The position numbers and the translations under genes are program-made. From contig JAXHVO010000140.1 of the NCBI GenBank assembly GCA_034189135.1, forward strand, positions 1 through 39,778: a DNA stretch of 39,778 bases. Direction: 5' to 3'. Positions within the stretch are counted from its first letter, which is position 1. Each line of letters begins with the position of its first letter. A model generated the notes under the pieces. It saw nothing but the letters and a program-made list of their open reading frames with translations, did no database searches and was not told where the DNA came from. The stretch comes from Thermodesulfobacteriota bacterium. Lineage in GTDB: Bacteria; Desulfobacterota; Desulfobacteria; Desulfobacterales; JAUWMJ01. Positions 6,988-38,976 of this stretch are shown here, in pieces.

Positions 6988-9219
6988 ATGATTAGTAAAG
7001 AATTAAGCGTAACTTTAGGATTGGCGGTCAGGGAAGCAAAAAAAAGACGTCACGAATATGTTTGCATAGAACATATTCTTTTTGCCGTTCTGTATGACAG
7101 CTCGGGTATTGAGATAATCGAAAGCTGCGGTGGAAATATTGAAAACCTGGTCAATGAGTTGGAAAAGTTTTTTGATGATAATCTGGAAACCGTTCCGGAA
7201 GGAAGCGAATATGTGCTTCAACAGACGATTGCTTTTCAAAGAGTGATACAAAGGGCGGTTAATCATGTTCGTTCTGCCGAGAAACAAGAGGTTGAAGTTA
7301 GTGATGTGCTGGCATCCATCTTCCTGGAAAAGGATTCCCATGCCGCCCATTTTTTAAATTCTGAAGGAGTAACCCGCCTTGACGTGCTAAGTTATATTTC
7401 CCATAGCATCGCAAAAACACCTTTTGCCGGAGGGTCTGGCGGATTTGTCAAGACAGATAAAAAACAGAAAAAGAAAAGATCCAATCCCCTTGAGCTTTTT
7501 ACTGTAGATCTTGTTAAAATGGCCGCTGAAGGGAAGCTGGACCCGTTAATCGGGCGAAAAATGGAGATGGAGCGTACCATGCAGGTCCTGTGCCGGAGAC
7601 GTAAAAATAATCCTGTTTTTGTCGGTGATCCCGGTGTGGGGAAAACAGCTATGGCTGAAGGCCTGGCTCAAAAGATAAACGAAGCGAATCTTCCGGATAT
7701 CCTGAAAAATATTAAAATATTTTCCCTGGATCTTGGTGGACTGCTGGCCGGTACCAAATTCAGAGGTGACTTTGAGCAGAGGCTGAAGGGGGTTCTTGCC
7801 GAGCTTAAAAAAATTCCACAAGCACTTTTATTTATTGATGAAATACATACCATAGTGGGAGCGGGAGCCACCAGCAGCGGATCCATGGATGCCTCCAATA
7901 TTTTAAAGCCTGTTTTGGCAGCAGGTGATATCCGCTGCATCGGTTCTACCACCTATGAGGAATACAAAAACCATTTTGAAAAAGACCGGGCACTTTCCCG
8001 GCGTTTTGAAAAGATAGAAATTCATGAGCCCCCTGTTGCAGAGACAGTTCGCATTCTCAAAGGGCTCAGATCACGTTATGAGGAACACCATGAGATTATT
8101 TATACGGACTCGGCACTGAAAGCGGCTACCGAACTTTCGGCCAAGTATATCAATGACCGTTATCTTCCGGATAAGGCCATAGATGTGATTGACGAGGCTG
8201 GCGCATTTGTCAGGCTTACAGGATCGACTCGCAGAAAAAAGATCAACCCTGCTGACATTGAAAAAATCGTGGCCAAAATCGCCAAAATTCCCACTCAAAG
8301 CGTATCCACATCAGACCGGACCAAACTGGAAAATCTTGAAGATAGCTTAAAACAGGTCGTTTTCGGGCAGGATGATGCCATAAAGAGCATGGTCACTTCA
8401 ATCAAGCGTTCCCGTGCAGGACTTTCAACTCCGGAAAAACCGATCGGATCATTTTTGTTTACCGGTCCAACCGGAGTGGGAAAAACAGAGGTTTCGCTGC
8501 AATTGTCCAAGGCTCTAGGTGTTGAGTTTATCAGGTATGATATGAGCGAATATATGGAAAAACATGCGGTCGCACGTCTGATCGGTGCGCCTCCCGGCTA
8601 TATTGGTTTTGACCAGGGAGGACTGCTTACCGATGGCATTCGCAAGCATCCATATGCAGTACTGCTTCTGGATGAGATAGAAAAAGCGCATCAGGACCTG
8701 TTTAACATTTTGCTCCAGGTTCTGGATCACGCGACTTTAACCGACAATAACGGGAAAAAGGCTGATTTCAGAAACGTGATCATCATTATGACTTCAAATG
8801 CCGGCAGTCGTGAGATGAGCATTCAAAGTATCGGCTTTGGTGATGTGCATAAGGATTTAAAATCAAAGGGTAAACAAGCAGTTGAAAAATTTTTCAGTCC
8901 GGAATTCAGAAACAGACTTGACGGCATCATTCAATTTAATTCACTCAATATCGAGATCATGGAAAAGGTGGTAGACAAATTTATCGCCCAGGTCAACGAA
9001 CAGCTATTACCCAGGAGAGTGTTACTTACTGTTTCTTCCGAGGCGCGTACCTGGCTGGCAAAAAAAGGATATGATCCGCGGTACGGCGCAAGGCCTCTCG
9101 AACGGTTGATACAGACAGAAATCAAAGATGTGCTTTCCGACCAGATTCTTTTCGGACGCCTGGAAAAAGGCGGCGAGATTAACGTTGGCCTGGAAAATGA
9201 CAAGTTGATATTCCCTTAA
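6988..9219 (+). CDS. clpA: ATP-dependent Clp protease ATP-binding subunit ClpA
   Basis: ClpA is the hexameric unfoldase of the ClpAP protease. The 743-residue protein has the N-terminal repeat domain (1-145) that binds ClpS, then two AAA+ modules. Module 1 has Walker A GDPGVGKT (213-220) and Walker B LLFIDEIHT (280-288). Module 2 has Walker A GPTGVGKT (493-500) and Walker B LLLDEIEKAH (about 559-568). IGF at 615-617, in SIQSIGFGDV, matches the tripeptide loop that docks on ClpP, so it should work with a ClpP encoded elsewhere. No ClpB-type middle coiled coil is present, which supports ClpA over ClpB or ClpC. It is followed after 7 nt by aat. Confidence 0.97.
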   Translation: MISKELSVTLGLAVREAKKRRHEYVCIEHILFAVLYDSSGIEIIESCGGNIENLVNELEKFFDDNLETVPEGSEYVLQQTIAFQRVIQRAVNHVRSAEKQEVEVSDVLASIFLEKDSHAAHFLNSEGVTRLDVLSYISHSIAKTPFAGGSGGFVKTDKKQKKKRSNPLELFTVDLVKMAAEGKLDPLIGRKMEMERTMQVLCRRRKNNPVFVGDPGVGKTAMAEGLAQKINEANLPDILKNIKIFSLDLGGLLAGTKFRGDFEQRLKGVLAELKKIPQALLFIDEIHTIVGAGATSSGSMDASNILKPVLAAGDIRCIGSTTYEEYKNHFEKDRALSRRFEKIEIHEPPVAETVRILKGLRSRYEEHHEIIYTDSALKAATELSAKYINDRYLPDKAIDVIDEAGAFVRLTGSTRRKKINPADIEKIVAKIAKIPTQSVSTSDRTKLENLEDSLKQVVFGQDDAIKSMVTSIKRSRAGLSTPEKPIGSFLFTGPTGVGKTEVSLQLSKALGVEFIRYDMSEYMEKHAVARLIGAPPGYIGFDQGGLLTDGIRKHPYAVLLLDEIEKAHQDLFNILLQVLDHATLTDNNGKKADFRNVIIIMTSNAGSREMSIQSIGFGDVHKDLKSKGKQAVEKFFSPEFRNRLDGIIQFNSLNIEIMEKVVDKFIAQVNEQLLPRRVLLTVSSEARTWLAKKGYDPRYGARPLERLIQTEIKDVLSDQILFGRLEKGGEINVGLENDKLIFP

Positions 9220-9226
9220 GCCTTTC

Positions 9227-9967
9227 ATGCCTGTTTTTTACTTAACTGATGAGCACATATTCCCTCCACCCCACCTTGCCGAAAAGGAAGGATTGCTGGC
9301 AGTAGGCGGCGATCTGAGCGAAGACAGGCTGCTGCTTGCCTACCGCATGGGTATATTTCCATGGTATTCAGCTGAAGAACCCCTTCTGTGGTGGTCGCCT
9401 GATCCACGACTGGTGCTTTATCCCCAAGAAATCAAGGCCTCAAAAACGTTAAAAAAGATAATAAAAAAAAACAAGTTTGCCGTAACCATGGATCAGGCAT
9501 TTGCCGAGGTGATTCATCAATGTGCACAAGTTCGAGTGGAAAATCATGAAGGAACATGGATAAACAACGACATGAGAAAAGCCTACTGCAGGCTGCATCA
9601 GTCGGGTTATGCACACTCTGTGGAAGCCTGGTACCAGGGAGAACTTGCCGGCGGCTTATACGGTGTTTCTCTGGGACATTCATTTTTCGGGGAGTCGATG
9701 TTTACCCGGATAAGCAATGCGTCCAATGTGGCGTTTGTCAAACTGGTAGAATATCTTACCCAACTGTCTTTTGATATGATTGACTGCCAGGTTAAAACTG
9801 AGCATATGATCCGATTTGGTGCCAGGGAAATACCGCGAGATCTCTTTTTGCAGCAATTGAAAGAGTCTTTAGGTGAACCGACAATAAAAGGAAAGTGGAG
9901 TTTTGAGACAAAAGAAATTAGCCACAGACCCACACCGACCCACCCGGACAGGCTGTCAAATGCATAG
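9227..9967 (+). CDS. aat: Leucyl/phenylalanyl-tRNA--protein transferase
   Basis: Aat adds Leu or Phe from charged tRNA to proteins with N-terminal Lys or Arg, creating the signal that ClpS recognises. Family motifs are clear: YRMGIFPWYS (39-48), LLWWSPDPRLVL, EGTWINNDMRKAY, GGLYGVSLGHSFFGESMF and IDCQV with the later RFGAREIPR. The arrangement clpS-clpA-aat, with 3 and 7 nt spacing, joins signal making, recognition and destruction in one unit. The last 16 residues (ISHRPTPTHPDRLSNA) are encoded inside one arm of an intergenic inverted-repeat element and are compositionally unlike the rest, so the original C-terminus has probably been replaced. Catalytic regions are unaffected. Confidence 0.96.
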   Translation: MPVFYLTDEHIFPPPHLAEKEGLLAVGGDLSEDRLLLAYRMGIFPWYSAEEPLLWWSPDPRLVLYPQEIKASKTLKKIIKKNKFAVTMDQAFAEVIHQCAQVRVENHEGTWINNDMRKAYCRLHQSGYAHSVEAWYQGELAGGLYGVSLGHSFFGESMFTRISNASNVAFVKLVEYLTQLSFDMIDCQVKTEHMIRFGAREIPRDLFLQQLKESLGEPTIKGKWSFETKEISHRPTPTHPDRLSNA

Positions 9968-15574: not shown

Positions 15575-17485
15575 TTATCCTTTTCTCAGCTTTCTGATAT
15601 CCCCGATCCTTAGGGTGACTTTTTTAGCATCAAAATATTCGATCAGCGGGATTACGAATTTGCGCGAGGCACCGGTCATGTCCTTGAACTGCGGGGTGGT
15701 AATTTCTCCGTTTAAAGTGAGAAAATCGACCAATTTTTTTTGCAGGTCATTTACAGCATCGGTATGGAAGTAAAGATCTTCTTTGGTTTTTATTATCATA
15801 CCCTCATCCACCAGAAGCATGAGCACATCATTTGCCTGTGCGGCATCCACATTAAGGGTTTTGGCAAGTTCTCTGAAGTATGGCGGTGTGAGCCCGCTTT
15901 TTTTGTAGGTGTCGATAATTTTCTTTTTGATATCCGTCTGGTCAGTGCCCAAAGAAACCTGATGGCCAGCCAGGCGAACCGTTTCTTCTTCTGCGGCAAT
16001 CTGTTTGGCTTTAATCATCTGGTTAATCACCAGGCTGAAAAGTTTTGAATTCATATCCGGCGGGAATTTGGTCTTAAGTTCTTCTTTGGGCATTCCCGTT
16101 TTCAGTGGATTGGCCTGGTGGTAAGTGTTTAAGTGGTTTTTTATGTTTGTTATTAATCCGTCAAAATGGTTTTTATGAAGGTAAATCTTTTTCTCCCTGT
16201 CAATCTGAATAAGGTCCTTTTTGGACAAAAGTCCCTGTATGGCGTTATCCAGTTGCTTTTCAGGAGAGTTGGTCATCAGTTTGAGGTTGGAGAAGGAAAG
16301 TCCCATATAACCGGATTCATCGGCATGGTGAGAGATGGTTTCTGTAAGATCGCTGTTTTCCAGCCCCTTTAACCCGGCTACAATTTCCGGTTTAAAACGT
16401 TTGTGTTTGGGTGGAATCGGGTTTAGTACATGGCCGCCACCAATGGTGCGAACCGGGGAATAGCTTCGCAACACAAAGCGGTCATCTTTAACCAGAGCTA
16501 CCGGAGATTCGAGACGAAGCTGGGCAACGGTTGTTTCACCGGGGTTCAGCTCTTCTTTATCCAGCAGAATCAGGTAGCCCAGAACTTCGCTGGTGCCGGT
16601 ATGAAATCTGACCAGCATGCGGTTTTTTGCCGGCTTGCTGTTGCTGGAAAGAAAATTCAGCGATATATCCACCATATAACCTGCCGTTAAAGCACCCGGA
16701 TTTGCCAGGATATCACCACGATTGACCGCTGCTTTTTCCAAGCCCTGGAAATTGATGGCAGTGCGCATTCCTGCCTCGGCCTCATTGACACTTTGGTTGT
16801 GTACCTGAATACCCCGAACCTTTGCGGTTATCCCTGAAGGATAGATCATGATGGTCTCTCCCACCCCGATACGTCCCGAAATAAGGGAACCGGTAATCAC
16901 CGTGCCAAAACCTTTCATGGTGAAAACCCGGTCTACGGGAAGGCGAAACAGGCCGGAGGAAGTGTGATCAGGGATTTGAGCGCTCAGTTGGCCAAGGGTA
17001 TCAATAAAATCCGGGACACCCTGTCCGGTTTTTGATGAAACCGGTATAATCGGAGTATCTTCAAGAAAAGTTCCCCGGATAAAATCTTCTACATCCTCCA
17101 TGGCAAGCTCCAGCCACTCTTCATCCACCAGATCAGTCTTGGTTAAAACAGTAAAACCGTATTTTACCCCTAGGAGTGTGCATATCTCCATATGCTCTCT
17201 GGTCTGGGGCATGACACCTTCGTCGGCTGCAATCACCATGACCACGATGTCTATTCCGGTGGCTCCGGCCACCATATTTTTAACGAATTTTTCGTGACCC
17301 GGAACATCTACAATGCCGATATGCTGACCACCGGGAAGGTCCAAAGAGGCAAATCCGAGTTCAATGGTAATGCCTCGAAGCTTTTCTTCCTTCAGCCTGT
17401 CCGTATCCGTGCCTGTAATCGCTTTGATTAAAGTGGTTTTACCATGGTCTATATGACCGGCGGTTCCGAGGATGATCTGTTTCAA
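15575..17485 (-). CDS. selB: Selenocysteine-specific translation elongation factor SelB
   Basis: SelB carries Sec-tRNA to ribosomes paused at UGA codons followed by a SECIS hairpin. The 636-residue protein has an EF-Tu-like GTPase: G1 GHIDHGKT (10-17), switch region [10 protein letters not shown]3 DVPGHE, G4 TKTD. Domains II and III follow, then the C-terminal winged-helix array (about 400-636) that binds SECIS RNA and sets SelB apart from EF-Tu. No selA, selC or selD is in the window. Its presence shows that UGA decoding as selenocysteine is possible in this organism, which bears directly on the UGA-containing small gene at 26747. The start ATG has only a weak upstream purine tract. Confidence 0.97.
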
Positions 17486-19077: not shown

Positions 19078-20103
19078 ATGAGACGAAATTTTCGACAAAT
19101 TTTGAAAAAAGCAGCAGATGTTTTCCAAAAAACGACTAATCTGGAAGTAGAATTTCAGGGCTATCAATACAAGGATACGGACTATCCAGATGCAATAATG
19201 AAAATTACCCAGAACAATGTTGAGAATTATTTTGAAGTAGAAGTGAAATTAATATTGACCAAAGGGAAAATCGGTTTAATTGCTCAACAGTTTATGAATT
19301 TTGAAGGGAAGGGCCTTCTTGTTACTCGTTATGTGACGCCACAAAATGCGGATCTGTTGAAAGATATGGATATACCGTTTATTGATACAGCTGGTAATGC
19401 TTACATCAATTGTCCCCCGTTATATGTTTTTATTAAGGGAAATAAATTAAAGGAGGATCCGCAAACGAAGCAAATACAAAGAGCATTTAGGCCGGCTGGT
19501 TTACAGGTGCTATTTGTTCTTTTATGTAATCCTGGGATAGAGAAGGAGCCTTTACGGAAAATCGCCAGAGCTGCTAATGTCGCTTTAGGAACCGTTAATA
19601 GGGTGATTAAAGAATTGGAAAAAATGGGTTATCTCATAGATATGGGCAGACGTGGCCGAAGGCTGGTTAGAAAAGATAATTTATTAAAACGTTGGATAAC
19701 TAACTATCCTGAACAGTTGAGACCAAAGCAAATAAAAGCTCGGTTAAAAGCGCCTAAACACGATTGGTGGAAGGATATTGATATTCAAGATTTTGGTGCT
19801 TTATGGGGAGGCGAGACCGCTGCCGCGATATTGACAAAATATTTAAAGCCAGAGCTGGCAACAATTTACACATTGAACACTATAGGAAAATTAGTCCTAA
19901 AGAATAAGCTAAAGAGACATCCAGCTGGAAATGTTGAAATTTTAAATATTTTTTGGAATTTCGAGCATGGTAGAATTAACAAGGGTTTAGTGCATCCAAT
20001 TCTGATTTATGCTGATTTGATGGCAACGGGAGATAACCGAAATATTGAAGTAGCTGGTGTTATTTATGACACAGCAATCGTTAAATATATCAAGGAAGAT
20101 TAG
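19078..20103 (+). CDS. AbiEi-type antitoxin / transcriptional regulator of a type IV toxin-antitoxin pair
   Basis: The 341-residue protein resembles the AbiEi family that carries an N-terminal nuclease-like fold: FEVEVKLILTKGKIGLIAQQ (about 52-71) and LLVTRYVTPQNADLLKDM, then IDTAGNAYI. A winged helix follows (about 150-200) with PLRKIARAANVALGTVNRVI as recognition region and GYLIDMGRRGRRLV as wing. The C-terminal part is the domain that in AbiEi is needed to counter the toxin. It overlaps the nucleotidyltransferase gene by several codons. The two upstream palindromes support self-repression. The protein lacks a convincing Shine-Dalgarno. Lower GC than the surrounding genes and the tRNA-Arg neighbour suggest acquisition by transfer. 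Confidence 0.8.
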   Translation: MRRNFRQILKKAADVFQKTTNLEVEFQGYQYKDTDYPDAIMKITQNNVENYFEVEVKLILTKGKIGLIAQQFMNFEGKGLLVTRYVTPQNADLLKDMDIPFIDTAGNAYINCPPLYVFIKGNKLKEDPQTKQIQRAFRPAGLQVLFVLLCNPGIEKEPLRKIARAANVALGTVNRVIKELEKMGYLIDMGRRGRRLVRKDNLLKRWITNYPEQLRPKQIKARLKAPKHDWWKDIDIQDFGALWGGETAAAILTKYLKPELATIYTLNTIGKLVLKNKLKRHPAGNVEILNIFWNFEHGRINKGLVHPILIYADLMATGDNRNIEVAGVIYDTAIVKYIKED

Positions 20104-20932
20104 CCGCCATATTTTAGAGGTTCTCGAAGCCCTATCAAATATTGCTGTTTCTCTTGAAATTTCATTTTTTGTGTGCGGAGCCTTAGCTCGGGATATTATT
20201 TTATATAATGTGTTTGAAATAGAAATTAAGAGGGCAACTGAAGATGTTGATTTTGGTGTAATGGTTGAAAGTTGGGATGAATTTGGACAGTTAACTAAAA
20301 AAATGAACCAATCAGAAGATTATAGAAAAGATAAAGATCCGCAGAGGTTTTACTATAAAGATGATTTCCCCATCGACATAGTGCCGTTTGGTAAAATTTC
20401 AAAACCTGATGATATTATTTCATGGCCAGATTGCGATGGTGTGGAGATGAATACGCTCGGTTTTGACGAGGCATATGGAGATTCAGTGACGATTTTGCTG
20501 AGGCAGGAGCCTGAATTAATAATAAAGATTGCATCTTTAAGGGGTTTGGCAGCCATGAAATTGATTTCATGGAAAGATCGATACCCTGAACGTAGTAAAG
20601 ATGCTAAGGATTTTGAATACATTGCACGTAATTATATTGATGCCGGTAACCTTGAAAGAGTATACAGCGGTGAGGATTCGGATATATTAGAGATCGAAGA
20701 TGCAGACTATGAATTGATGAGTGCCAGACTTATGGGTAGAGATGTCTCGGTAATATTAAATCCGGAATCAAAAGATTACATACTTAAAATATTAGAAACC
20801 GAAACGGGAGAACAGAAATCATATAAATTTATTGAGGATATGAGGCAGGGTAATTATATTAACAGAGATGATTTCGATGAAAGGTTTAAACTGCTCGAAG
20901 CATTTAAGCAAGGTTTTGTCGAACGGCTTTAA
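20057..20932 (+). CDS. AbiEii-type nucleotidyltransferase toxin
   Basis: In characterised AbiE systems AbiEii is a nucleotidyltransferase that halts growth when not balanced by AbiEi and can stop phage. The 291-residue protein has a DNA polymerase beta-like fold: CGALARDI (about 41-48), the metal-binding EDVDFGV (about 63-69), a third acid in FPIDIVPFG (about 106-114), and the family's C-terminal LAAMKLISWKDR ... SKDAKDF helix pair. The first glycine motif reads CGALARD where GGTALRD-like forms are usual. Two start codons (20057, 20066) lie inside the upstream gene, so translation is coupled; which is used is unclear. Antisense genes are absent. Confidence 0.82.
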   Translation: MLFMTQQSLNISRKISRHILEVLEALSNIAVSLEISFFVCGALARDIILYNVFEIEIKRATEDVDFGVMVESWDEFGQLTKKMNQSEDYRKDKDPQRFYYKDDFPIDIVPFGKISKPDDIISWPDCDGVEMNTLGFDEAYGDSVTILLRQEPELIIKIASLRGLAAMKLISWKDRYPERSKDAKDFEYIARNYIDAGNLERVYSGEDSDILEIEDADYELMSARLMGRDVSVILNPESKDYILKILETETGEQKSYKFIEDMRQGNYINRDDFDERFKLLEAFKQGFVERL

Positions 20933-29382: not shown

Positions 29383-30378
29383 TCAAAATATATTGGTACG
29401 AGTATCTTCCTTAAACTTGGCCTTTGATGGATTACCCTCTGCTCTAAAAATCTTGCCGTTTGAAATATCAAATACCGAGGACCAAATGGTTTCAAAATTT
29501 AATGCTTTATGGTACTGGCACATAAACCCATGTTTTCCACTGAGTATCGCTTTGGCGTGTTCAATGCCATTGATGAAATCAATATTTTTTAATGCATTGT
29601 ACGCCGTTTGATATCTTATGTCAGATGAATAAATAATACACGCATTATTACATCTCATTTCCTCAGAAATAAAATGGTTGGCTGCCACAATAAAATTTTC
29701 ATCTGACGCAGGTTTCCTGAAAAATACTTTTTTAGGCGTACATTCGGCAACCGCGATATCACCCCTTTTGTCTGCTAAAATGATGTTACAGGCTGAAGCG
29801 ATGGGCAAACTTTGCAAGGCGTTCATCGCCTCTTTGGTGGTGGCACATTTTTCAAGCAGATAGCGAACCAAAAATACAGAATTAATCCCGGGTACAATCA
29901 TCACCGGTACAATACATTCCATGGCAACGGCCAAACCGCATTCATTCAACCCTTCTTCAAAGTTTATCATTGAGGAGGTGTTGCCAGTAAATCAATAGCC
30001 ATTATTAAGTTCATATAATACACTTTTGCTTTCATTTTTGAGAAATGGCGGCAAGTCATTATTCCTGCCACAAAATACGTGATTATGGTGAATAAAACAA
30101 AAAGCGGTGCAACCTTTAGGATCATAGCAGCATCCCATGCATAATAACCATGAAGCAAATTTTTCATATGAATAATTCAATCCGTCGGTCGTTCCACGTA
30201 TTTCATCACAAATTTCGGGGAAGACTTCTGATAGTATTATTTGGGATTTTTTACCAAAATTTTGCTGAAATCTATTAAGATCAATGATCTTATCGAAATC
30301 GATAGTTTTCTTTTTTAGTATGTTACCAAACTTCAAACCGATATCATAATGCCTGCCTTTAAGTCTTGGATGGTACAT
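29383..30378 (-). pseudogene. C45-family (acyl-CoA:6-APA acyltransferase-like) peptidase with in-frame TGA
   Basis: Two parts in the same frame are separated only by a TGA at 29992-29994. The N-terminal 128 residues contain the autoprocessing-type GCTAFCF with the likely nucleophile Cys, then CGRNNDLPPF; the C-terminal part runs FTGNTSSMINFEEGLNECGLAVAM onward for about 200 residues. The whole would be about 331 residues, near the family norm. The TGA lies where related proteins, as far as I recall, have Ser (Y-S-F); TCA to TGA is one change. No SECIS-like hairpin is visible after it, so a nonsense mutation is favoured over selenocysteine. A good AAAGGAGG precedes the ATG at 30378, so decay may be recent. 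Confidence 0.75.
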
Positions 30379-34578: not shown

Positions 34579-37500
34579 TCAGGCCTGCTTTCTTTGTATT
34601 CGCCTCATAAAATTCACCAGCGGTTTCACCAAATCGATCGGCTTTTTTTTGCGTTTTTTGAAAATTTCCTCAAGAGAAAGATGGGGATCCTTTTCAGGAT
34701 TTCTCAGATACAAACGTATCGAATTGAGTCGATCGATGATTTCCCTTTCGACCCGGTTTCGCAGTATTTTCTTCTTTTTTAGGATTTCCTCTTTTATGCC
34801 CGGGGAGGTATCTGTGTCCTTGAACTTGTTTAATTTATATTGAATGCGCATATTGATGAGCTCGAGCATTACTTTTTCGTAGTCCGCTCCGAGCCAGACC
34901 ACTTCGGGTACAAGATCACCGAAGTGGGTGACCCCAAGCACATCCTTGTTCTGATTCCAGTAGTTCATCAGAAATTCGGGTTCAAGGTCTTTGTAGTTCT
35001 GCAGCGGCATATACATTCGCCTAAGGTGCATCAGTACTTTTTCAGTTTTTTTCTTATGGCCACCGATAATGACCGAACCGCCGACCTCGCCTTTTTTTAC
35101 GCCCTTTGTCCACGGTGCGCCCGTGATTCCGAAATCATGATAGATCGGAATATTAAACAGAGCCGAAAGTGTGTTCAGGGCAAGAGCATACCCGGCTGAG
35201 GGCCCTCCCACACTATAGGAAGCTGAAAGGAGCTGGTGGTGGATTGAATATTTTTCCAGAAATTCCCCCAGCAGCCTGGCAATGCTGACTTTCGGTTCCA
35301 GGTCCTGGAGATAATTTTTTACCATGGTCAGGGCTTCTTTGGCCGACTGCTGGGTCATCTGGACAGCCATATCCAGCTCAGCTGCCGCCGGTGTCGAGGA
35401 GGAGACAGCACCGGTGACCAGAACTTTATCAGGGTCCAGGCTGTACGTAAGACTGGTGGCGATAGGAAGGAGTATTCCGGACACATCACTGGCCCCGACG
35501 CCGATAATAAAGCCAACCTGGGGTTCCTGGCTTAATTCCGCTTCCAGAAATTCATCCAGTTGGGCCTTGCCTTTCTTTACCGGGCTCTGGGAGATTTCTC
35601 CTTGTGCCGATAATAGATGGGATTCCATCAGAGGGTAATGTGCTTCATCTTGAATTTTTTTTAACAATTCCACGATTTCATCATAACGGTTGAGAAATTC
35701 ATGGGGACTGTTTTTTGTCGCTGTCAAAATGGTCTCCGGTGCATCCACAGCATCGAGTATACCGATAAGGGTTTTGTAGTTAAACTTTATAAAGTTATCC
35801 CTGATTTTAGATGAAGCATCAAAGAGGTTACGATAACGCAAAAGCACTTCATATTCAGTACTTCGCAAGCTCATGGCTTTTTTCACAAAGGCCGCATAAT
35901 CTGCCGGTGTATTGCACAAGCTTTCCGCCTGTTCAATAATGGCCTCCACATCAATTTCCCGGTCCAGCGGGACATCTTTTAGCGTGTTTTGGATAATTTT
36001 AGTGATATCTTTTTTCCCGAGCATTCCGGTAATTTCCAAAACCTTCAAGCGTTTTGAGCGGATCAGTGCCGGATCAAGGATATCCAGACGGTTCGTTGTA
36101 AGGGTGGTAAATACTCTGTTAAGGGGGATTTCTCCGTCAATGATGTTCAGTAATTTGTTGGTCAATTTGTCAGCAGGGGAACCGCCGGAGGCACTTCGTT
36201 TCGGAGCCAAAGAATCTCCTTCGTCAAAAAATACGATGGTCGGCGCAATCATTTTGGCGATATCATAAATTTTCTCAAGATTGTCCACTGCACCGTCGAT
36301 AGGGTTAACCGGATCCTGTAGTGCGCTGGGGCTTGAGGAAATATCGTGGATATCGCTGTTTTCACTCAACCAGGACCTGATAAGAAAGGTTTTACCGCCT
36401 CCGGGGGGTCCCTTTAAAACCACGCCTTTTTCTTCTCTCACTTCATAGAACAGGCAGTTGTTGGCCATCTCGGAAAACGTATTTTTAATCGTCCCAACAT
36501 ATTCGTCCCAATTTACCCTGCGATCCATATGGTCGACGAATTTGTTGTAAAGGTCACCGTAAGAATTCTTTGCCACCAGTTCAAAAGCCTGCCTGATGAG
36601 CACAGCATCATCCAGGTAATCGGGCAGGAAGTCTCCCTTTATTTCTATGACGGACTGAACCAGTTTTCTGACATAAGCCGGAATGACTTTCAGGGTCCTT
36701 TCATCAAAGGTGGTAAAAAGTTTTTCAACAATATGATCCAGGTCATGGTCACTAATACAGGTAATGTTTTTATGGCAGATTACATCGTCACGTTCTCCCA
36801 CCCGGATATCATTTCTTTTCAGCTCAAGCCGGACGATTTCTTTAAGGTTGTCCGCATTCTTCCAAAATTCTGAGATATCGATGATCTTACCCTTTTCAAC
36901 AAAGCGTCGATAGATGGCGGAATCAAAACGTTCGGGTTGGTGGGTGGTGGCGATCAGCAGGCAATCGCGCCTGCCGTTTATGATTTCATCAATGACGATG
37001 TTCGATGTGTCGATTAAAGTTCGTTGCTGTCCCTCCAGTCCGGATTGGCGGTCATCCGCTTTTCCGAATGCGCTGTGTGCCTCCTCTATATGCCGGACGG
37101 ATGTTTTTCTCGGATCTCCCATGGCTCTTTTAAAATAGTTACCCGGCTCACCGGCTAGCGCGGTCTGGTAATCATTGGGTGTGATCATGGTATAGTCCAC
37201 CATGACCCCTTGCTCTTCGAGTTGAGACAGGTGGCTGGATATCCGCTTGCGGAATAGGAGCCTGATAAGCGGGAGACGGGAAAGCCGTTTGTAGAATTTT
37301 AATTTTTTCCTTCTTTCGATTTCAAAAGACAAGGTGGGATCCAGCTCATCTATGGTTTTCCAGAACATCTCCTGTGCAAGGATCTCTTCTTTTTTCCGTT
37401 TAAAATCGATTTCCGGAAGCACTTCATTTGCAAAAATTACTTTTTCAACCGCAGCTGTCAGGGTGCATGTTTTTCCACTTCCACTCGGGCCGGTGATAAG

Positions 37501-37977
37501 GAGAAGGGGAGCTTTGGGGACCGATGGATCGGAGAGGTATTCCTTTCTGATATGGGACCGGTAAACTTTTTCAAAAAGTGTGCGAAGCTCCCATGGGACA
37601 TGCACATCTGCGAGCTCTTTTTCCAGAAGTGCCGTGAGATAAATATAATCTTTAGCCGAAACCTCCTTCTCCAGAATCTTATTCCATGCATCCTGAGGAT
37701 TGGTCTGTCCTGAAATTTCAAAACGCCGCTGCCAGTCGGTGAGAATCTCAGGATCATTTAAGATGACGAACTTTCTATCGTGGGCAGACATGAAAAAGGA
37801 TAACAAGGTTTCCAGTATGGTATTGACGACATCGGAGGGTGGCTTGTACTGATTCAGCCGTGAGCGCATAAATGCCCGGGTTTCATAGGGCCAGGATGCC
37901 ACCAGTTCATCGATTTCACGGATGCGCTTTTCAGGAAGGCGCACATATTTAATTTCTTTTGTCAGCTTTCGGGCCAT
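34579..37977 (-). CDS. Double-AAA+ ATPase fused to a Lon-type (S16) protease domain
   Basis: A 1132-residue protein with an unusual order of parts. Residues 1-150: helical, no known domain. AAA+ module 1: Walker A GPSGSGKT (163-170), an insertion of about 120 residues with the basic-hydrophobic FYKRLSRLPLIRLLFRKR (228-245), a Walker B-like RHIEEAH (295-301), and ATTHQPE with RRF (357-359). AAA+ module 2: GPPGGGKT (523-530), IVFFDEGDSLA (581-591), TTNRLD, ALIRSKR (637-643), like FtsH/Cdc48. Residues about 820-1000: Lon protease fold with the catalytic Ser927 in GGPSAG and Lys975 in IIGGHKKK; the 48-residue spacing exceeds E. coli Lon (43) because of an insertion at WTKGVKK. The C-terminal tail is basic. 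The start overlaps the SPFH gene by 29 nt, so the two are made together. Known Lon proteins have one AAA+ module; ATP-driven membrane-linked proteolysis is the natural inference. Confidence 0.85.
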   Translation of the reverse strand: MARKLTKEIKYVRLPEKRIREIDELVASWPYETRAFMRSRLNQYKPPSDVVNTILETLLSFFMSAHDRKFVILNDPEILTDWQRRFEISGQTNPQDAWNKILEKEVSAKDYIYLTALLEKELADVHVPWELRTLFEKVYRSHIRKEYLSDPSVPKAPLLLITGPSGSGKTCTLTAAVEKVIFANEVLPEIDFKRKKEEILAQEMFWKTIDELDPTLSFEIERRKKLKFYKRLSRLPLIRLLFRKRISSHLSQLEEQGVMVDYTMITPNDYQTALAGEPGNYFKRAMGDPRKTSVRHIEEAHSAFGKADDRQSGLEGQQRTLIDTSNIVIDEIINGRRDCLLIATTHQPERFDSAIYRRFVEKGKIIDISEFWKNADNLKEIVRLELKRNDIRVGERDDVICHKNITCISDHDLDHIVEKLFTTFDERTLKVIPAYVRKLVQSVIEIKGDFLPDYLDDAVLIRQAFELVAKNSYGDLYNKFVDHMDRRVNWDEYVGTIKNTFSEMANNCLFYEVREEKGVVLKGPPGGGKTFLIRSWLSENSDIHDISSSPSALQDPVNPIDGAVDNLEKIYDIAKMIAPTIVFFDEGDSLAPKRSASGGSPADKLTNKLLNIIDGEIPLNRVFTTLTTNRLDILDPALIRSKRLKVLEITGMLGKKDITKIIQNTLKDVPLDREIDVEAIIEQAESLCNTPADYAAFVKKAMSLRSTEYEVLLRYRNLFDASSKIRDNFIKFNYKTLIGILDAVDAPETILTATKNSPHEFLNRYDEIVELLKKIQDEAHYPLMESHLLSAQGEISQSPVKKGKAQLDEFLEAELSQEPQVGFIIGVGASDVSGILLPIATSLTYSLDPDKVLVTGAVSSSTPAAAELDMAVQMTQQSAKEALTMVKNYLQDLEPKVSIARLLGEFLEKYSIHHQLLSASYSVGGPSAGYALALNTLSALFNIPIYHDFGITGAPWTKGVKKGEVGGSVIIGGHKKKTEKVLMHLRRMYMPLQNYKDLEPEFLMNYWNQNKDVLGVTHFGDLVPEVVWLGADYEKVMLELINMRIQYKLNKFKDTDTSPGIKEEILKKKKILRNRVEREIIDRLNSIRLYLRNPEKDPHLSLEEIFKKRKKKPIDLVKPLVNFMRRIQRKQA

Positions 37978-38917
37978 GGATCCTCTCCGAAAGTTTATTT
38001 GGATTGGCAGGAGCCGGAAGTGTCAATGCCGGGCTGCTTTGGGTATTTTGTATGACCACCGTATGCTGCCCCTCCTGATTCTTTTCGTAAGCTGTCGCCC
38101 ATTTTTGTTGCGTTAAAAATTGAAGAAGGGCTGTATCAGTGGTTCCATCCGGTCGTCCGACGGTCTTTTGAAGGGCTTGAATTCCGTCAAGATAGGCGGC
38201 ATACAGTTTCCGAATACGGCTGGCCTCCTGATCCGCGGCATAATTTTCCGCTTCGGCAATAAGCTGCCGTCGTTTTTTTTCCTCCGTGGCTTCAACCAGC
38301 TTATCCCCGAAACGGGTCTCTTTCAGTACAAAACTCACGATCTCGATACCGTATTTTCTTTCCAACGTCGGCCCGCCTTCATTAATCGGCCTCGATTTTA
38401 AAGCCAGAAAAATTTTCTCCTTGATATGCTCCCGATCGCTGACCAGCTGATTGACCTCTTGGGCCTGGAGAATGTCCTTTACAATTCCGTCGTAATCACC
38501 CTGCAGGAGTTGCATTGGATAAAGGTTTTCAATGGCCCATGTCTTAAGATCACGAATACGGTAGGTGAGCACTGCGGACGTCCACAGGGCAACGTTTTCC
38601 CTGGAAATGATCCGCATCGGTTCAACCGATCCTGACAGGAAAAGGGTTTGATTCATCAGGGGTACTTCCTGTTCGATTCGGGTAAAAAACGGGAGCCGCA
38701 CATGCCAACCCACGCCGGTAATTGCCTCTCGCTTTCCGCCGAACCTTTCCAGTACAATGGCATAGTTCATCTTAACTTTGAAGATGGTTTTGGTGGCATA
38801 GATAACCGCCGCAAATCCGTAAATGATTCCTGCGATGGTAAACAAAGCCAGAGCCCTGCGCAATACCGTTTTTACAAAGGCTCTTCGAAGAATCTTTTTT
38901 GAAAGTTCATCGGGCAT
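37949..38917 (-). CDS. SPFH domain membrane protein (HflC/prohibitin-like)
   Basis: The ATG at 38917 is chosen since AAGGAG (38923-38928 on -) sits 5 nt before it; an ATG six codons earlier would overlap that site. The 322-residue protein has one membrane helix (about 22-45 from this start, ALALFTIAGIIYGFAAVIYA), then an SPFH domain with YAIVLERFGGKREAI.GVGWHVRLPFF, typical of HflC/HflK, then a helical region with the Ala/Glu-rich EATEEKKRRQLIAEAENYAA as in flotillins and HflC, and a proline-rich end. SPFH proteins form large ring-like cages in the membrane. Its gene overlaps the AAA-Lon gene, suggesting a protease complex like HflKC-FtsH. There is no second SPFH gene, so a homo-oligomer is likely. 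Confidence 0.88.
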   Translation of the reverse strand: MPDELSKKILRRAFVKTVLRRALALFTIAGIIYGFAAVIYATKTIFKVKMNYAIVLERFGGKREAITGVGWHVRLPFFTRIEQEVPLMNQTLFLSGSVEPMRIISRENVALWTSAVLTYRIRDLKTWAIENLYPMQLLQGDYDGIVKDILQAQEVNQLVSDREHIKEKIFLALKSRPINEGGPTLERKYGIEIVSFVLKETRFGDKLVEATEEKKRRQLIAEAENYAADQEASRIRKLYAAYLDGIQALQKTVGRPDGTTDTALLQFLTQQKWATAYEKNQEGQHTVVIQNTQSSPALTLPAPANPNKLSERIHGPKADKRN

Positions 38918-38976
38918 ATGGACTCCTTTTTGCATTTGGTTTCAGTCATAAAATTATGGTAACATTTTTGGCCAAT

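Follow-up and report, generated by a model that had tools for sequence, protein, structure and literature searches.

Two adjacent genes on the minus strand of the window, a stretch of 39,778 nucleotides analysed from contig JAXHVO010000140.1 of a Thermodesulfobacteriota bacterium, encode a predicted one-pass SPFH membrane protein and a protein in which two AAA modules precede a Lon-type protease domain. Each of these parts belongs to a known superfamily, and the combination, with its regular SPFH partner, matches none of the families tested. The pair appears to be a variant of the SPFH-associated AAA proteases, for which a mechanism can be suggested from homology and gene pairing. It seems moderately probable that the two genes specify a single membrane-associated, ATP-dependent serine-lysine protease, parallel to HflKC-FtsH.

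SPFH rings that work with an AAA protease are best known from HflKC-FtsH and from prohibitin and its m-AAA protease, and the way in which the ring steers the protease in such partnerships is still debated. If the reading given here is true, the features essential to the partnership would become apparent from a second, independent example that differs in its peptidase, has a motor of two tiers and shows no evident membrane helix in the protease. In addition, nature would here have fused a Cdc48-like double motor to a peptidase, a useful comparison for work on p97 and the proteasome.

Layout and AAA modules of the Lon protein

The double-AAA Lon protein is encoded by an open reading frame of 1132 aa (34579..37977, minus strand) and was recognized by Pfam, NCBIfam, and PDB sequence matches. 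Its gene and the SPFH gene share 29 nt (37949-37977, minus strand), and the list of open reading frames agrees with the original prediction in both the positions and this overlap. Residues 1-122 (37612..37977, minus strand) form a mostly helical N-terminal region in the structure model (block pLDDT 61-87), and no Pfam family falls there among the best 25 of 31 matches. They are followed by AAA1 (residues 123-380; 36838..37611, minus strand), assigned by PF00004, conservation, and Z 16-17 to AAA domains, and by the Cdc48/FtsH-like AAA2 (residues 481-705; 35863..36537, minus strand), assigned by Pfam, NCBIfam, and PDB matches and by conservation.

Conservation was evaluated on 51 rows from 47 contigs (as told apart by their lengths), four of which are represented twice and among which the window accounts for one row; L039 and L044 are omitted, being fragments that lack the protease domain. 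Two AAA modules had been predicted, and each of them passes the Pfam AAA family PF00004. The whole protein scores 93.4 bits, with the best stretch at 519-646, and residues 100-500, which contain AAA1 without AAA2, reach 30.2 bits (cut-off 21.2); the family is matched by 31/31 members. AAA1 carries Walker A at 163-170, Glu298-Glu299 at Walker B, and Arg357/Arg358, and AAA2 carries Walker A at 523-530, Walker B at 581-586, Asn629, and Arg640/Arg643. The Walker A lysines Lys169 and Lys529, Glu298/Glu299, and Asp585/Glu586 are invariant in all covering rows (47 or 48), as are Asn629 and the four arginines, which are read from their position as arginine fingers.

AAA2 is matched by the Cdc48, PAN, and FtsH models of NCBIfam. 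In PDB sequence comparisons the whole protein is closest to VCP-like and Cdc48 proteins, and AAA2 to Cdc48; the AAA1 profile yields only P-loop-level and weak Cdc48 matches. The full-protein model, built from 31 rows with a mean pLDDT of 64.8, is fair to good over residues 1-465 and falls below pLDDT 50 in AAA2 and a large part of the Lon domain. Since the model is unusable there, these two domains were assigned from sequence. With the whole model as query, every one of the 50 Foldseek matches listed is a p97/Cdc48 chain (best E 6e-8), with low TM-scores of 0.11-0.19 of the query. Superposed on individual AAA domains from p97, proteasome ATPases, FtsH-type motors, and Trip13, the AAA1 region reaches Z 15.5-17, mostly at rmsd 3.5-4.6 across about 220-250 residues, and further rows of the same list cover two domains at rmsd 15-20. 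Because of these Cdc48/FtsH-type model, PDB, and fold matches, the motor adjoining the Lon domain is assigned to the classical AAA type and is not Lon-like. Judged by such comparisons, both modules are of the classical (Cdc48/FtsH) type. Lon proteins carry an AAA module of the HCLR clade (PMC9569914), and the protein is not simply Lon with an extra ring, because both of its modules are classical.

AAA1 contains an insert (residues 184-258; 37204..37428, minus strand) with a basic stretch at 221-252, delineated by charge counts and model helices and modelled as mainly helical from 192 to 253. The Walker A lysine of AAA1 is separated from Glu298 by 128 residues; in LonA, 60 residues lie between the Walker A Lys and the Walker B Asp (PMC9569914). 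The basic stretch has a net charge of +6 to +14 (median +10, 47 rows) and is the most basic 32-residue stretch in the Lon protein of the window. Columns at 90% identity make up 29% of the insert, below the domains, and 22% of its basic stretch. In archaeal LonB, the part that enters the membrane is located between Walker A and B (PMC9569914), a position which the AAA1 insert shares in a broad sense; the chemistry differs, as the insert is basic and insufficiently hydrophobic for a membrane helix. A peripheral contact with the membrane or with a partner may be its role.

No membrane helix is seen in the Lon protein by hydropathy, in agreement with what had been predicted. Indeed, the most hydrophobic 19-residue windows (1.41-1.82) fall in the protease domain in 31/31 rows. 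A LonB-type transmembrane anchor in the AAA module was likewise not found by hydropathy, the AAA1 insert never being the maximum in the same 31/31 rows.

The Lon domain, its catalytic dyad and the nearest known proteins

The Lon (S16) protease domain (residues 796-1030; 34888..35592, minus strand) was located by Pfam, LonB alignment, and PDB profile matches. The protein scores 28.9 bits against the Pfam family Lon_C PF05362 (cut-off 21.1), which is matched by 31/31 members at E 0.001, and the best PDB matches to the Lon-domain profile are the archaeal Lon-type entries 1xhk and 1z0b. The catalytic Ser927 (GGPSAG; 35197..35199, minus strand) is Ser in 51/51 rows and is preceded by Pro in every one of them (51/51).

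The original prediction had paired Ser927 with Lys975. The serine stands, but the catalytic lysine is assigned to Lys977 (IIGGHKKK; 35047..35049, minus strand), which is Lys in 51/51 rows. Position 976 is Lys in 48/51 rows and position 975 in 38/51, the others having R, M, Q, L, or H. Lys977 takes the catalytic place because GGVTQK of A. fulgidus LonB is aligned with GGHKKK, so that its lysine corresponds to Lys977. The lysine of GGVTQK was identified as the catalytic one of LonB by the rule, counted on the alignment, that catalytic Ser and Lys are 42 residues apart in LonA and LonB (PMC9569914). Ser927 and Lys977 are separated by 49 residues, which fits the seven gap columns in the LonB alignment. 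Lys975 was rejected on the LonB alignment and on its lower conservation. A Ser/Lys dyad is thus retained on alignment, a point on which the original prediction had made itself depend, and Ser927-Lys977 would confer a putative Lon-type serine-lysine peptidase activity.

Archaeal LonB is similar in its S16 domain and in an AAA module whose Walker A and B are separated by an insert. It differs in its single HCLR-type AAA module with a transmembrane part in the insert (PMC9569914), whereas in the protein described here the two AAA modules are classical and the basic insert has no hydrophobic segment; the LonB model TIGR00764 gives 35.1 bits against a cut-off of 516.6, over residues 817-1028 only. 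With bacterial LonA the protein shares the A-type active site Gly-Pro-Ser-Ala-Gly, in which the Pro before Ser is described as a LonA trait (PMC9569914). Conversely, the LonA model TIGR00763 matches the protease part alone (residues 808-999) and stays far under its cut-off (33.7 bits vs 608.05). The tandem classical AAA modules are like those of p97/Cdc48, as are the best matches of AAA2 and the Foldseek matches listed; unlike p97/Cdc48, the protein is fused to a protease, and CDC48 TIGR01243 reaches 90.3 bits vs 802.65 over residues 513-705. FtsH TIGR01241 gives 60.8 bits vs 600, over residues 517-724 only. By these curated models the Lon protein is not LonA, LonB, FtsH, or Cdc48.

A table in a 2008 survey of serine-protease architectures contains LON-AAA-Lon_C, Sigma54-AAA-Lon_C, and Mg-chelatase-Lon_C among others, and AAA-AAA-Lon_C is not among the architectures in the survey's passages on this subject (PMC2605481). 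The word Lon is absent from the main text of a 2009 survey of 12 SPFH subfamilies (PMC2636767) and from the text consulted of a 2026 study of P. aeruginosa SPFH proteins (PMC13086221). Among the literature matches listed from PMC, the titles and abstract starts describe no such architecture or pairing; within this scope, the earlier statement that no described system with this arrangement was known met no counterexample.

The SPFH partner and the proposed machine

The SPFH (Band_7) protein gene (37949..38917, minus strand) was assigned by its ORF, PF01145, an invariant Met7, one hydrophobic segment, and model and fold matches. From the first ATG the ORF extends over 37949-38935 (minus strand) and encodes 328 aa. 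The ATG at 38917, which gives 322 aa, is preferred as the start because its Met (Met7) is invariant in 35/35 aligned SPFH rows and AAGGAG lies directly ahead of it; this is the end coordinate that had been predicted. The protein of 322 aa would consist of one N-terminal membrane helix, the SPFH domain, and a coiled coil. It scores 67.9 bits against Band_7/SPFH PF01145 (Pfam cut-off 23.6). Hydropathy reveals a single hydrophobic segment, at residues 28-46, in line with the one-pass protein originally proposed. The structure model is weak (pLDDT 64.4), and its top Foldseek matches are stomatin, HflK/C, prohibitin, and QmcA. An identity with HflK or HflC was rejected, since no NCBIfam match was found at E up to 10, including HflK TIGR01933 and HflC TIGR01932.

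SPFH proteins are known in both orientations (QmcA), and HflK and HflC are N-in with a periplasmic body. Ahead of the SPFH helix 4-8 K/R stand against 0-3 D/E, and in the 20 residues past it 2-5 K/R against 1-2 D/E (35 rows). This positive-inside charge pattern favours a protein with its N-terminus in the cytosol and its body in the periplasm, so that about 20 residues would be cytosolic. The cytosolic tail has 19% of columns at 90% identity, below the domains. Because column identity is low in this tail and in the AAA1 insert, a specific contact at either of them is unmarked by conservation.

The pair resembles HflK/HflC-FtsH in that an SPFH membrane protein accompanies a classical-AAA ATP-dependent protease, the link here being gene pairing. 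The FtsH peptidase is of the zinc M41 type, whereas here it is Lon-type Ser/Lys; the known system has one AAA module and two SPFH proteins, whereas here there are two modules and one SPFH protein. Moreover, no membrane helix is seen in the protease here, and the SPFH protein lacks an NCBIfam match.

In the machine proposed, the SPFH protein would form a ring in the inner membrane and the Lon protein a cytosolic hexamer, with the AAA1 and AAA2 rings stacked above the Lon chamber. AAA1 would face the membrane, held there by its basic insert, by the SPFH protein's basic tail in the cytosol, or by both. Proteins in or near the membrane would be drawn through the two rings and cleaved by Ser927-Lys977, and the SPFH ring might admit or exclude them, as HflKC does for FtsH. 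An SPFH body in the periplasm leaves little to meet a cytosolic protease, which counts against this pairing model. An HflKC-like cage would need a different contact with the protease, because the SPFH body is predicted to be periplasmic and the protease is without a visible membrane or periplasmic part. The basic insert of AAA1 is a second possible membrane link. The original prediction had derived the membrane link from the SPFH partner, in a cage like that of HflKC-FtsH. Its elements of a conserved pair, a Ser/Lys dyad, two AAA modules, a protease without a visible membrane helix, and no described counterpart in the literature covered were borne out, apart from Lys975. None of the findings that it had named as refuting it was observed, though the cage itself now appears less certain than it did there.

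The genome of the window contains ten Band_7 places, among which true HflK (255.1 bits, cut-off 159.4) and HflC (290.2 bits, cut-off 134.4) are found, and it also encodes FtsH (878.6 bits, cut-off 600). Since HflK, HflC, and FtsH occur elsewhere in the genome, the pair is additional to the classical system. A Cdc48-like double-ring motor with a Lon chamber, tethered by the AAA1 insert and the SPFH tails, may have evolved apart from HflKC-FtsH and coexist with it; this can be put forward tentatively. Seven Lon_C places occur in the genome, including the double-AAA Lon protein. On another contig of the same genome, a tandem of Band_7 proteins of 371 and 345 aa (L071, contig C65, 1327-3473) has no NCBIfam match at E 1e-10 and is distinct from the genome's HflK and HflC.

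Occurrence of the pair and its genomic surroundings

Scanning GTDB genomes with a pattern that reaches only close relatives retrieved 41 homologous loci. Desulfobacterales-type or deltaproteobacterial labels are carried by 39 of the 41, and the others are labelled "bacterium" (L028) and Archangium (L042); one of the members, Desulfospira joergensenii DSM 10085 (L036), is a cultured organism. In seven of the 41 loci the contig starts within the protease gene. In all 34 loci whose upstream DNA is present, the next gene upstream, in the same orientation, encodes an SPFH homologue (65-92% identical). Conservation of the pair, which the original prediction had set as a check, is thus observed, and its recurrence excludes chance. 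The spacing between the two genes ranges from -29 to +33 nt, with an overlap in 17/34 loci, figures that depend on taking the start nearest to that of the window. Pairwise distances of the two proteins are correlated (r 0.88, 31 loci), a figure that reflects nothing beyond common descent.

Among 395 genomes drawn evenly from the phylum of the window (Desulfobacterota by labels), 12 carry the protease at E 1e-40, that of the window included. The SPFH protein was found at E 1e-40 in the same 12/395 genomes, and at this threshold neither gene occurs alone in any. The SPFH match adjoins the protease in all 11 other loci of this draw, the most divergent of which (L052-L055) are about 52-53% identical. 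A Lon-domain profile at E 1e-12 returned the same 12/395 genomes with nothing between, the weakest match having 422 bits. Phyla besides those of the window and of the Archangium MAG were covered by the GTDB pattern scan alone. L042 is a protease fragment on a contig of that MAG, 67% identical to the window's protein and the only match among 193 genomes of the MAG's phylum. No SPFH match was found in the MAG at E 1e-5, which does not decide about the pairing, since the contig begins inside the protease gene; misbinning or transfer may account for the fragment.

This distribution bears on the possibility that the Lon protein is a soluble protease for quality control and that the SPFH scaffold, though encoded in the same operon, is independent of it. 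Such a protease would agree with the Lon protein having no visible membrane helix; the co-occurrence in 12/12 genomes, with no single carriers among 395, and the short gene spacing both argue for a common task and make it quite improbable. Strict pairing would fit equally well a relation of protease and substrate, in which the SPFH protein is trimmed or removed by the protease and a membrane microdomain is thereby tuned, as with PH1510 on stomatin. We consider this unlikely. Two unfolding rings seem excessive for trimming a single partner, and PH1510-type proteases are not known to be ATP-dependent. Nevertheless, a membrane-bound stomatin-specific protease is known, archaeal PH1510 having been reported to cleave stomatin (PMC3795559). 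Among the closest known systems, SPFH-NfeD operons (QmcA-YbbJ, PH1511-PH1510) also join an SPFH gene to an operon partner, and some such partners are described as serine proteases (PMC2636767). The NfeD-type partners are not known to include AAA or Lon proteins.

The neighbours of the pair were clustered over 42 loci (the 41 and the window), of the 41, 31 extend 2 kb or more ahead of the protease start and 35 extend 1.3 kb or more past its end; clusters of antisense or out-of-frame ORFs within both genes were set aside. No third conserved gene emerged among these 42 loci, many of which have short flanks, the maximum being 15/42. Recurrent genes include those for an amidohydrolase (15 loci), a CinA-like protein (11 loci), and an alpha/beta-hydrolase encoded immediately ahead of the SPFH gene (10 loci), each named from one member; all three are absent from the window. 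Another cluster of 15 loci is a mixed chain of regulatory proteins, as read from two members. In the window the pair adjoins serB and a CoA-ligase-like gene, and promoter and terminator scans were near shuffle level (8 vs mean 7.4 and 8 vs mean 6.5, respectively).

A defence or stress-response system, carried as a patchy accessory, would be in keeping with the spread of carriers (12/395 genomes, 9/246 genera) and with PADLOC, in which AAA2 matches IetA and TRIP13 (best E 5.5e-11). However, these matches are confined to AAA stretches, and the neighbours, serB and the CoA-ligase-like gene in the window and amidohydrolase and CinA-like genes as the commonest elsewhere, argue against it. Carriage by plasmids or phages was rejected, as 72,556 plasmid and 50,697 phage records gave no match at E 1e-20, which also speaks against defence. 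Such a role is therefore very improbable, and a membrane-associated protease is preferred. A scan of IMG/VR returned at least 21 loci, which match only residues 487-684 around AAA2.

Other features of the window were observed. A second proteolysis locus at 6988-9967 encodes a Clp-type double-AAA protein beside a leucyl/phenylalanyl-tRNA-protein transferase. An AbiEi/AbiEii type IV toxin-antitoxin pair lies in a low-GC stretch at 19078-20932, about 15 kb from the SPFH-Lon pair. At 29383-30378 (minus strand), two ORFs in the same frame are split by an in-frame TGA and 7 codons. The second matches AAT PF03417 from profile position 46, and the first has no Pfam match; the split may reflect selenocysteine, disruption of the gene, or a mistake in the assembly. 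A SelB-like factor is encoded in the window at 15575-17485.
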